NCBI RefSeq assembly: GCF_000620785.1 | Contig: NZ_JIAI01000014.1 | Span: forward strand, 62,001-126,000 | DNA: 64,000 nt | Reading direction: 5' to 3' | Source: Actinospineispora acaciae DSM 45401 | Lineage (GTDB): Bacteria; Actinomycetota; Actinomycetes; Mycobacteriales; Pseudonocardiaceae | The notes under the pieces: generated by a model | What the model was told of the DNA's origin: nothing | What the model saw: only the letters and a program-made list of their open reading frames with translations | Databases searched by the model: none | Part shown: positions 8,275 to 42,467 of the stretch, in pieces | How the letters are laid out: every line of letters starts with the position of its first letter | Numbering within the stretch: position 1 is the first letter of the stretch | Program-made: the position numbers and the translations under genes

Positions 8275-8301
8275 AACAATACAACGCAGCGCTGTATTGT
8301 T
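8275..8301. promoter_or_regulatory. 27-bp TetR-type operator, copy 1
   Basis: Arms AACAATACA and TGTATTGTT are perfect inverted repeats around a 9-base centre. The full 27 bp matches the element at 42441-42467 at 24 of 27 positions. It lies 26 bases before the LysR start and contains TATTGT, a possible -10 for that gene. The second copy sits in the TetR/methyltransferase gap, so the TetR protein of that locus is the likely binder. Confidence 0.7.
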
Positions 8302-8326
8302 ATGCGACGAGCCGACGGGACGACGG

Positions 8327-9208
8327 ATGTTCAGCTTGACGCGGTTGCGGGTGCTGGCCGCCGTGGCGGAGCATGGGTCGGTCACCGCGGCGGCGGCCGC
8401 CTTGCACTACGCACAGCCGTCGGTCAGCCACCACCTGGCCAGGCTGGAGGCGGAGACCGGCGCGGTGCTGGTGCAACGGGTCGGCAGGGGCGTGCGGCTG
8501 ACCGACGCCGGCCGGATGCTCGCGGCCCGAGCCACCGAGATCCTCGGCCGGGTGGATGCCGCGCGCGCCGAGCTGGACGAGCACACCGGCCTGCGCACCG
8601 GCCGGGTCCGCCTGGCCGCCTTCCCCTCCGCGCTCGGCACCATCGTGCCCACCGCCGCCGCCCGCCTGCGCGCCACCCACCCGCACCTCGCCCTCGAACT
8701 GACCGAGGCGGAACCCCCCGAAGCCCTGTCCATGCTCCGCTCCGGCGACGTCGACGCGGCCGTCGTCTTCCACCACAGCCCCGAGGCCGTCGACGCCGAC
8801 ACCGACCTGCGCCTCGACCCCCTGGACGACGAGGCCCTGCACCTGGTCGGCCCCGCCGCCGACCCCTGGCCCGCGACCCTGCCCGACCACGCCGACGCCG
8901 ACTGGATCGCCGGCTGCGAGCGCTGCCGCAACCACCTGCTCTGGCTGTGCGCCCAGGCCGGCTTCACCCCCCGAATCCGCTTCACCACCGACGACTACGT
9001 GGCCACCCAGGCCCTGGTGTCCGCCGGCCTGGGCATGACGGTCCTGCCCGACCTCGCCCTGCGCGCCTACCGCCACCCCGGCGTCCGCACCACCGAGCTC
9101 ACCGGCACCACCCGCCGCGTCCTGCTCGCCCGCTACGGCCGCCCACCCGACCCACCCGCCGTCCTCGCCCTCACCACCGCCCTCACCACCGCCCTCACCA
9201 ACCCCTGA
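8327..9208 (+). CDS. LysR-family transcriptional regulator
   Basis: A 293-residue LysR regulator. The winged helix is at residues 1-60 (MFSLTRLRVLAAVAEHGSVT, then ALHYAQPSVSHHLARLE). The substrate-binding domain follows, starting near residue 88 (GRVRLAAFPSALGTIVP). The C-terminus is low-complexity, with repeated ALTTALTTALT. It is divergent from the PLP dehydratase and probably regulates it, the usual arrangement. The ATG at 8327 is selected by homology to the LysR N-terminus. The ribosome site is weak (GACGGGACGACGG). The upstream operator suggests that the gene is also repressed by a TetR protein. Confidence 0.88.
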   Translation: MFSLTRLRVLAAVAEHGSVTAAAAALHYAQPSVSHHLARLEAETGAVLVQRVGRGVRLTDAGRMLAARATEILGRVDAARAELDEHTGLRTGRVRLAAFPSALGTIVPTAAARLRATHPHLALELTEAEPPEALSMLRSGDVDAAVVFHHSPEAVDADTDLRLDPLDDEALHLVGPAADPWPATLPDHADADWIAGCERCRNHLLWLCAQAGFTPRIRFTTDDYVATQALVSAGLGMTVLPDLALRAYRHPGVRTTELTGTTRRVLLARYGRPPDPPAVLALTTALTTALTNP

Positions 9209-9307
9209 CAGCGGTCACGGATCGCGACCGACCCCGGTACCTCGGTGCACGCTCCTACTTTCGAGTGGTTGGCCTTACCGCGCTGGCCAGCGGCTCGTTA
9301 ACCGGGT

Positions 9308-10141
9308 ATGACGGCGCTGCGTGATCGGTCCACCACGGCGCGTACCGTCGATCGGGCGCTCGCCCAGCTCACCGGCGCGCTCAAGCACGGCGGTTTCGGC
9401 ACCAGCGCGACCACCGAACGCCGCGGCCGCCGCCGACGCCGTACCACCGAGATCGACCACGTCGACCTGAAGGTCAGCGCCGAGCGCCAGCGCATCGCCG
9501 GCGCGCTGCACGACGACGTCAGCCAACTGCTGTTCGCGATGGCCGCCAGAGCCCGCCGCGCCCACGACCTGCACCCCGACGACCCCGCCGAGCTGCGCGA
9601 GGCCCTCAGGCTCATCGCCGAGCAGCTCCAGGAGGCACAACAGCGGGTGCGCGGCGTGATCAGCGCGTGCGGCCCGACATCGGCGTCGGACACCGTCCCC
9701 ACCGCCGCGCAGCGCGACCTCGACGACTTCACCGACCGGACCGGGGTGAGCGCGGACCTGCTGGTGCGCGGCCGCCCGGTGCACCTCGCGCCTCCGGTGG
9801 AACGCGTCGCACTGAGCTGCCTGCGCCAGGCCCTGTTCAACATCGAGCGACACGCGCACGCGGGCCTGGTGGTCGTCACGCTGGACTACCAGCCCGACCG
9901 GCTGGCCATGATCGTCCAGGACGACGGCCGAGGCCTCCCTGACGGGTTCGAGCCGCGCGCGGTGCCCGCCGACGGCCACCACTGGGGGTTCACCTCCATG
10001 GCCGAACAGGTCGAACGCCTCGGCGGGTCCGTGCTCCTGCGCCGCGCCCCGGACAGCGACGTCGACAGCGACATGGCCGGCGACATGGCCGGAGGCACCC
10101 AACTGCGGGTCGAGCTGCCCCGGCCGGCCGAGGCGCGATGA
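9308..10141 (+). CDS. soluble sensor histidine kinase, NarL/DesK class
   Basis: A 277-residue kinase with no transmembrane segment. The N-terminal 50 residues are unassigned and carry an arginine cluster (RRGRRRRR). The HisKA_3 dimerisation helix holds the phospho-acceptor His68 in ERQRIAGALHDDVSQLLF. An HATPase domain follows, with the N-box LFNIERHAHA and DDGRGLPDG. Near the C-terminus a short DSDVDSDMAGDMAGG repeat is an odd insertion. Its stop overlaps the start of the response regulator (ATGA), so the two are a cognate pair. The signal is unknown; without membrane helices it should sense something cytoplasmic or depend on a partner. Confidence 0.88.
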   Translation: MTALRDRSTTARTVDRALAQLTGALKHGGFGTSATTERRGRRRRRTTEIDHVDLKVSAERQRIAGALHDDVSQLLFAMAARARRAHDLHPDDPAELREALRLIAEQLQEAQQRVRGVISACGPTSASDTVPTAAQRDLDDFTDRTGVSADLLVRGRPVHLAPPVERVALSCLRQALFNIERHAHAGLVVVTLDYQPDRLAMIVQDDGRGLPDGFEPRAVPADGHHWGFTSMAEQVERLGGSVLLRRAPDSDVDSDMAGDMAGGTQLRVELPRPAEAR

Positions 10142-40442: not shown

Positions 40443-41729
40443 TCAGTCCTCCGGGGTGTAGCGCGGGTACGCCAGGTCACCGAGGTAGCGGGCGGCGTCG
40501 CCCAGGGTCTCCTCGATGCGCAGCAGCTGGTTGTACTTGGCCACCCGCTCGGACCGGGCCGGCGCGCCGGTCTTGATCTGTCCGCACCCGGTGGCCACCG
40601 CCAGGTCGGCGATCGTGGTGTCCTCGGTCTCGCCGGAGCGGTGGCTCATCACGCACTTGTAGCCACAGGAGTGCGCCAGCGTGACGGCGTCCAGCGTCTC
40701 GGACAGCGTGCCGATCTGGTTGACCTTCACCAGCATCGCGTTGGCGGCCTGGCGGGAGATGCCGTCCTCCAGCCGCTCCTGGTTGGTGACGAACAGGTCG
40801 TCGCCGACCAGCTGCACCCGCCCGCCGATCTGCGCGGTGAGCGCCCGCCAGCCGTCCCAGTCGTCCTCGGCCAGCGGGTCCTCGATGGACACCAGCGGGT
40901 ACGAGCCGAGCAGCTCGGCGTAGAAGTTCGACATCTCCTCGGCGGAGCGCTTGGAGCCCTCGAAGGCGTAGGTCCCGTCGGTGAAGAACTCGGTGGCCGC
41001 CACGTCCAGCGCCAGCGCCACGTCCCGGCCCACGGTGAGCCCGGTCTTGCCGATCGCGTTGGCGATGAAGTCCAGCGCGGCCCTGGTGCCGGACAGCTCG
41101 GGCGCGAAGCCGCCCTCGTCGCCCAGCCCGGTGGACAGGCCCTGCGCCTTGAGCACGGACTTGAGCGCGTGGTACACCTCGGCGCCCCAGCGCAGCGCCT
41201 CCCGGAACGACTCGGCGCCGACCGGGACGATCATGAACTCCTGCACGTCCACCGCGTTGTCGGCGTGCGCGCCGCCGTTCACGATGTTCATCATCGGCAC
41301 CGGCAGCACGTGCGCGTTCGGCCCGCCGACGTAGCGGAACAGCTCCAGCCCCGACGACTCGGCCGCCGCCTTGGCCACCGCCAGCGACACCCCGAGCAGC
41401 GCGTTGGCGCCCAACCGGGACTTGTCGGGGGTGCCGTCCAGGTCCACCAGCTTCTGGTCGACCACCCGCTGGTCGACGGCCTCCACGCCGAGCAGCTCGG
41501 GGCCGATCTCGTCGAGCACGCCGGCCACCGCCCGCTCGACCCCCTTGCCGCCGTAGCGCCGGGAGTCCCCGTCGCGCAGCTCGACGGCCTCGTGCTCGCC
41601 GGTGGACGCGCCCGAGGGCACCGCCGCCCTCGCCAGCGTGCCGTCGTCCAGTGCGACCTCCACCTCCACGGTGGGGTTGCCTCGAGAATCGAGAATCTCG
41701 CGGGCGCCGACCTGCTCGATGACGGCCAC
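40443..41729 (-). CDS. eno: enolase
   Basis: Enolase converts 2-phosphoglycerate to phosphoenolpyruvate in glycolysis. The 428-residue length is standard. It starts [20 protein letters not shown], contains GDDLFVTN and the metal aspartate in [11 protein letters not shown]. The signature [17 protein letters not shown] is followed by [26 protein letters not shown] ahead of the GTG at 41729 selects the start. It heads the eno-ftsB-DUF501 operon, an arrangement conserved in actinobacteria. Confidence 0.97.
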
Positions 41730-41828
41730 ATCAGCTCCTTGGATCAATCTGGCTCAAGCATTGGGTATCGGTCCCGCAGAGCCTAACCGCCGGGCCCGAG
41801 CGGGCTCCCGTGCGCCGCGCCACCAAAC

Positions 41829-42434
41829 CTACGCCCGCCCGGGTCGGTAGCCGGCCTCCCGGAGCACCGCGGTCAGGTAGTCCTTGATCTCGGCGCGGCG
41901 GCTGGTGTCCGGATAGCCGCCGAGGTGGTGCAGGACCGCACCGTTGAGCAGGCCCAGGAGTACCTCGGTGTTGCCGTGCTCGGGGAGCTGGCCGTGCGCG
42001 CGGGCGCGGTCCAGGGTGGCTCGTACCGCCTCGCCGCGCCGGTGGCCGTGGGCCTCGCGGTAGGCCTCCAGCAGTTGGGGGAAGTCGTCGACCGCGCCGT
42101 AGAGCCGGCGCAGCATCCGCCGGTTGCGCGGCCGGGCGAGGTAATCCGCCCAGTCGTCGAGCATCCGGTCGAGGTCCGGCCAGTCCGGCCATTCGGGCCG
42201 CTGGTGGTCCTCGTTGTCCACCCGGTCCGCCCACTCGATCGCCCGCGCCAGCAGCGTCGTCTTGTCGGGGAACCGGCGGTAGACGGTCGCGCGGGTGACG
42301 CGGGCGCGGCGGGCGACCTGCTCGATGCTGGTCGCCCCGGCGCCGCACTCGGTGAACAGCTCGAAGGCGGCGGCCATGATCGCCAGATCCGTCCGCTGGT
42401 CGCGCGGGCGACCTGGACGCCGTGGGGGTTGCAC
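41829..42434 (-). CDS. TetR-family transcriptional regulator
   Basis: A 201-residue TetR repressor. The helix-turn-helix at residues 14-60 reads IMAAAFELFTECGAGATSIEQVA, then RATVYRRFPDKTTLL. The C-terminal ligand domain is helical. The 27-bp palindrome at 42441-42467 begins six bases from its GTG start. Read on the minus strand, the palindrome supplies TATTGT about eight bases before the GTG, so the gene is probably leaderless and self-repressed. A near-identical palindrome at 8275-8301 suggests a second target. The ligand is unknown. Confidence 0.88.
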   Translation of the reverse strand: MQPPRRPGRPRDQRTDLAIMAAAFELFTECGAGATSIEQVARRARVTRATVYRRFPDKTTLLARAIEWADRVDNEDHQRPEWPDWPDLDRMLDDWADYLARPRNRRMLRRLYGAVDDFPQLLEAYREAHGHRRGEAVRATLDRARAHGQLPEHGNTEVLLGLLNGAVLHHLGGYPDTSRRAEIKDYLTAVLREAGYRPGRA

Positions 42435-42440
42435 GTGAAA

Positions 42441-42467
42441 AACAATACAATGCTGCGTTGTATTGTT
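42441..42467. promoter_or_regulatory. 27-bp TetR-type operator, copy 2
   Basis: Arms AACAATACAA and TTGTATTGTT are perfect 10-bp inverted repeats around TGCTGCG. The element fills the 39-base gap between the TetR and methyltransferase starts. It contains TATTGT on both strands, each placed as a -10 for one gene. A bound repressor would block both promoters. Confidence 0.8.

Follow-up and report, generated by a model that had tools for sequence, protein, structure and literature searches.

A predicted TetR operator in three copies in the Actinospineispora acaciae genome, one of them probably captured in the leader of a lysR gene

In a 64,000-nucleotide stretch of the Actinospineispora acaciae DSM 45401 genome (contig NZ_JIAI01000014.1, positions 62,001 to 126,000; hereafter the window), a 27-bp palindrome lies between a tetR gene and a divergent methyltransferase gene and again, 34 kb away, upstream of a lysR gene, and a third copy is found elsewhere in the genome. 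From sequence comparison, we consider it probable (about 0.75) that the palindrome is the operator of this TetR, that the tetR block arrived recently, that a short operator-bearing cassette was copied within the genome and that lysR was captured by it. The newly arrived repressor would control its own locus, i.e. tetR and the methyltransferase gene, and the cassette, the operator and about 30 bp downstream of it, would have been copied to two other places in this lineage. One copy, inserted between lysR and its ancestral promoter, would have brought a TetR-repressible -10 while the old -10 decayed; lysR, and perhaps via lysR a neighboring dehydratase gene, would thus come under TetR control. 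The effect of the other copy, upstream of a Rieske oxygenase gene, is uncertain. Sequence comparison ties the palindrome to this TetR family and shows the insertions and the cassette copying; binding of TetR at sites 1 and 3, occlusion of the promoters, transcription from the new -10 and release by a ligand are inferred. The sites and the tetR locus are as follows.

8275..8301, no strand: site 1, operator copy upstream of lysR, recognized by sequence match and by a matrix of foreign sites
42441..42467, no strand: site 2, palindrome predicted as the operator of TetR and covering the -10s of two leaderless, divergent promoters
G000:C2:1427954-1427980, outside the window: site 3, third operator copy, with one arm mismatch
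41829..42434, minus strand: tetR, TetR-family repressor (PF00440, PF16859)
42442..42447, minus strand: candidate tetR -10, TATTGT, a consensus match 7 nt before GTG
42461..42466, plus strand: candidate methyltransferase -10, TATTGT, a consensus match 7 nt before GTG
42474..43292, plus strand: S-adenosylmethionine (SAM) methyltransferase of LCM fold, divergent partner of tetR (PF04072)
41825..43333, no strand: ~1.5-kb insertion comprising exactly tetR, operator and methyltransferase gene, from comparison to the G010 sequence and blastn against six relatives, edges set by eye

The first-pass annotation of this DNA had described two elements 34 kb apart agreeing at 24 of 27 positions with shared arms, one between tetR (minus strand) and the methyltransferase gene (plus strand), the other between the dehydratase gene (minus strand) and lysR (plus strand); the agreement and both gene contexts were borne out. 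Sites 1 and 2 carry identical, perfect arms, AACAATACA / TGTATTGTT, at these coordinates, and their core identity of 24/27 as oriented becomes 25/27 with site 2 reversed. Allowing up to three mismatches, they are the only matches to the arm pattern in the whole window, and 100 dinucleotide shuffles of the window gave zero. A scan of the whole genome with the arm pattern (9,929,692 bases in 93 contigs, 98% complete, with a contamination estimate of 7.3%) returned few matches, not the many random ones that the annotation had named as refuting its idea: at the same threshold, three places in 9.93 Mb, namely sites 1, 2 and 3, and none for a reversed-pattern control. A looser core pattern found sites 1-3 at no mismatch plus seven further places, all at the three-mismatch limit, against five for its control. 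The idea of a small regulon visible within one window is supported for tetR's own locus and for a second one; the third site sits outside the window. Five positions vary among the three sites, all within positions 11-19 and, except for position 19, outside the arms proper; the outer arms AACAATACA and GTATTGTT are unchanged.

The company that the palindrome keeps in other genomes makes it almost certain that it serves as operator for the TetR encoded at 41829-42434. Nine same-genus TetR orthologues, at 52-55% identity to the window TetR, all have a diverged palindrome of the type TTACAATACAGAGCWGNNCTGTATTGTAA directly upstream of tetR and in the same register. Independently of genus, the pattern ACAATACNNNGCWGNNNNGTATTGT was scanned across the genome contigs of 84,980 species and gave 17 matching stretches. 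Nine are actinobacterial (two Microbispora, Umezawaea, Nocardia, Promicromonospora, Glycomyces, Saccharothrix, Streptomyces and Amycolatopsis), and each adjoins a TetR 48-57% identical to that of the window; the eight non-actinobacterial stretches have no such TetR within the fetched stretch. These orthologue-linked palindromes (9/9, and 9/9 actinobacterial) support the earlier suggestion that this one TetR acts on its own locus and on a second locus.

We built a scoring matrix from these 18 foreign sites only (nine same-genus and nine from the species scan), leaving the window sites out. Its top two places in the window are 42440 (site 2, score 39.0) and 8274 (site 1, 35.8), the next non-overlapping place scoring -15.7, and site 3 scores 33.1. 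Five random windows gave at most -1.3, fourteen lysR homologue loci at most -7.8 and six enolase loci at most -16.1. The 20 loci of distant TetR homologues (28-35% identity) did not exceed 15.2, two of them, L023 and L028, having weak related sites near tetR (11.0 and 15.2); tetR homologues at 36-37% identity are also present in G015:C33 and G084:C861, outside this set of loci. Chance similarity of the sites was considered and is ruled out by the shuffles, the genome scans, the reversed control and the matrix ranking. A literature search for ACAATACAGAGC combined with TetR and operator found no match, and the search with ACAATACA, TGTATTGT and TetR was partly screened among many two-term matches; we do not claim that the motif is unpublished.

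At the home locus, the operator and the two start regions are tightly superimposed. The TetR helix-turn-helix domain scores 52.9 bits with PF00440 (cut-off 24) and 52.7 bits with PF16859 (cut-off 32). The methyltransferase, scored on the longer frame 42435-43292, reaches 56.7 bits with PF04072 (cut-off 22.3, E 3.8e-15) and stays, at 46.8 bits, under the curated cut-off of 93.55 for the SAM-dependent methyltransferase model TIGR00027; relatives at 36-37% identity adjoin tetR in two Microbispora loci. On both strands, each arm of site 2 supplies TATTGT, then 7 nt, then GTG, so that the earlier assignment of TATTGT as a -10 is exact for both genes here (site 1 is taken up below). The tetR-proximal arm contains a TANNNT hexamer in all 18 foreign loci, with the start codon 7 nt on in 15 and 6 nt in 3, using the start codons of the protein alignment (the first overlapping GTG would give 5 in L012 and 4 in L098). 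This spacing of 6-7 nt implies leaderless transcripts, and a palindromic operator overlapping tetR's own promoter is seen at the 18 orthologous loci and at this one. A TetR dimer, or two, on the site 2 palindrome would block the tetR and methyltransferase promoters by occlusion until released by a ligand. Downstream of the foreign tetR orthologues examined lies a gene for a hydrophobic protein of 154-163 residues that reaches no Pfam cut-off (L141 4425-4895, L092 5850-6341, L096 4423-4887); a search of the present genome, which lacked a positive control, found none.

TetR regulators within 200 bp of a divergent neighbor most likely regulate that neighbor, according to Ahn et al (2012; PMC3511530). 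The present TetR resembles the divergent systems described there in being divergent from an enzyme gene with the operator in the 39-bp gap; it differs from them in that the operator arms supply both -10s of two leaderless genes and in that the operator has two extra genomic copies.

All 19 TetR proteins share the HTH recognition stretch VTRATVYRR without a change. Residue 45, which directly precedes it, is Arg in the window TetR and Gly in the 18 others, and position 11 of the 29-mer is G in 35/36 foreign half-sites and A in 5/6 half-sites of this genome. Tentatively, the Arg45 change in the DNA-binding motif may accompany the lineage-specific bases in all three operators, as part of the joint reading of a newly acquired module that we come back to below.

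The tetR-operator-methyltransferase block appears to be a recent arrival between enolase and its neighbor. From enolase to the next conserved gene, the distance is about 170-280 bp in G010, G004, G008, G066 and G015 and 1.67 kb in the window, and neither tetR nor the methyltransferase gene is found at the enolase junction in any of six relatives. The junction in G012 is occupied by different sequence, about 1.3 kb long, with a 311-residue open reading frame (L150 1998-2933); given this different frame, the junction may be a favored insertion place. A weak TetR-like match in L148 (34%, E 8e-5) lies on the other side of enolase. An orthologous tetR gene also occurs on two Pseudonocardia plasmid records, and a 206-kb plasmid carries one.

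Multiple copies of the operator are peculiar to this genome among those compared. Exactly one operator at two mismatches or fewer is present in 17 of the 18 genomes bearing the orthologous TetR, the 18th, G034, being missed as its own operator exceeds this limit; two relatives without the TetR have none at the same limit. Order-wide, at one mismatch or fewer, the operator is matched in 5 of 397 genomes, at three places in the present genome and at a single place in each of the remaining four, and the exact arm pattern at up to two mismatches is absent from 59 relatives.

Sites 1 and 3 resemble each other well beyond the palindrome. Their whole match covers 61 bases at 82% (E 3.5e-10), and their right flanks agree at 21/23 bases after a 5-bp indel, none of 5000 shuffles being as good. 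Such similarity shows descent from one copied segment, whichever the direction of copying, so that sites 1 and 3 are copies of a short operator-promoter cassette rather than products of base-by-base evolution. The flanks of site 2 have no significant likeness to those of site 1, in either orientation, or to those of site 3, and the search for a source of the cassette flank elsewhere in the genus gave, outside the palindrome, just weak matches in G020 and G068.

The copying of promoters has parallels. In promoter propagation in prokaryotes, which Matus-Garcia and colleagues reportedly described in 2012 (cited in PMC8049555), short promoter segments are duplicated within a genome before unrelated genes. 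Likewise, a short promoter-bearing piece appears copied here within one genome; unlike in that process, it holds the predicted operator of a named repressor, and copying would recruit genes into its regulon. REPIN/REP repeats, too, are dispersed intergenic palindromes. Compared with these repeats, which are the subject of PMC8049555, the present palindromes are likewise dispersed and intergenic, but they number just three and are tied to a TetR gene across genera.

The features of the lysR locus are listed below.

7219..8217, minus strand: gene resembling pyridoxal phosphate-dependent threonine/serine dehydratases, divergent from lysR and perhaps an indirect target (PF00291)
8254..8259, plus strand: decayed ancestral lysR -10, CGGGAT, against TAGACT in G010 and TAGCAT in G012
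8270..8330, plus strand: 61-bp insertion in the lysR leader holding site 1, from alignment with the G010 and G012 orthologues, edges +/- about 4 bp
8295..8300, plus strand: candidate new lysR -10, TATTGT, predicted from the sequence
8311..8333, plus strand: flank in common with site 3, 21/23 bases, from sequence comparison
8327..9208, plus strand: lysR, proposed direct target (PF00126, PF03466)

The dehydratase gene is likewise divergent from lysR in G010 and G012, whose LysR orthologues are 82% and 79% identical, and the alignment places the 61-bp insertion after a conserved CATAGA promoter box and before the start of lysR. Ten lysR homologues (L038-L047) look leaderless; eight have TANNNT at a distance of 6 nt from the start, and the two exceptions have TAATCC and TGGGGT. 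The operator is present at site 1 and the ancestral -10 looks degraded; lysR is a putative regulon member. The simplest reading is that lysR is now transcribed from the inserted, repressible promoter, with TATTGT as its new -10, and lysR is a likelier direct target of site 1 than the dehydratase gene. Site 1 might instead be recognized by LysR itself or by some other TetR, as binding to the own divergent promoter is common among LysR-type regulators and the genome holds many TetR-like candidates (231 in a first look). We regard this as very unlikely: 14 loci of lysR homologues, those of the 82% and 79% orthologues among them, lack the palindrome, the genome's next best TetR is just 34% identical to the present one (P0001), and site 1 matches the operator of this TetR family.

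The copy at site 3 is less readily tied to a target. The Rieske oxygenase gene downstream has a hexamer of its own, TACGGT, 6 nt from the ATG, and its promoter looks intact and is not overlapped by the operator; this hexamer and the 73-nt distance make direct TetR control doubtful. Site 3 is not present at the matching locus of G032, whose TetR-like neighbor is 74% identical. An alternative is that sites 1 and 3 are relics of copied DNA without a regulatory role and that TetR acts at its home site only. In its favor are the flank shared beyond the palindrome, which shows segment copying, the 73 nt between site 3 and a Rieske gene that has a leaderless promoter of its own, and the single operator of the orthologues. 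This alternative nevertheless seems improbable to us, as none of the differences between the three sites touches the outer arms and site 1 is placed where lysR transcription or its leader must be affected, next to an old -10 that looks decayed.

That the palindrome is a recombination or mobile-element end, and no operator at all, is the least likely of the explanations weighed. Site 3 does adjoin a tetR-like gene that is inverted relative to G032, the 1.5-kb block around site 2 is itself an insertion, and an orthologous tetR is carried by a 206-kb plasmid; but the palindrome holds one fixed place relative to the tetR start in 18 other genomes, and site 2 is central in the inserted block and far from either end. 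A phage or plasmid origin of the cassette was likewise rejected, no viral contig having the operator pattern and no plasmid record matching the cassette (the phages collection was not searched).

Several observations weigh against the reading of a TetR operator copied into the lysR promoter. Sites 1-3 (35.8, 39.0 and 33.1) score below all 18 foreign sites (41.7-59.3), so the matrix fits this lineage loosely, and the eight non-actinobacterial chance matches, drawn from 257 Gb of mostly unrelated genomes, reach 34.1 (L097); a score near 33 is therefore telling only in a search space as small as one genome. The nine species-scan loci were picked by the operator pattern, and their having an operator is not independent evidence, while the adjoining TetR is. 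The placement of the varying positions gave p 0.0016 with limits picked after the data were seen, and the left flanks of sites 1 and 3, with 9/10 bases in common, are not significantly alike (p 0.10). At site 1 the TATTGT hexamer is present, and the lysR ATG (8327) lies 26 nt downstream of it, not 6-7; in L045, one of the lysR homologues, the hexamer TGGGGT is about as poor although there is no insertion. Finally, site 3 does not overlap the Rieske promoter.

Beyond the operator assignment, we can conceive, with slightly less than even confidence, that a newly acquired repressor-methyltransferase module seeded a ~60-bp cassette into host promoters, replacing the leaderless one of lysR, as an early stage of regulon expansion. 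The operator and the repressor are ordinary in kind; the interesting part is the copying of the cassette into a replaced lysR promoter. It would be a concrete case of a regulator gaining targets by a copied operator-promoter in a leader rather than by point mutations, and, with the state before the insertion preserved in close relatives, its steps could be rebuilt and measured one by one. A specific operator motif is also proposed for an uncharacterized, widespread actinobacterial TetR subfamily.

Some features of the surroundings may be added. Beside site 3, the TetR-like gene P0005 is inverted with respect to both flanking genes relative to G032 (L106 vs L107), with site 3 at one junction. 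The motif CCGAACGRTCGGTTGATT occurs at L003 1440-1457 and 2326-2343 (G000:C2), before the Rieske gene and before the gene across P0005, and is probably the own operator of the P0005 regulator. Right after the site 3 flank, at L003 about 1548-1580, a short tandem repeat, GCGTTCATACGGCGG / ACGTTCATACGGCGG, was seen by eye. The dehydratase-like protein scores under the cut-offs of all NCBIfam models of its group. The window's only Rfam match at gathering score is a tRNA gene at 10979-11052.

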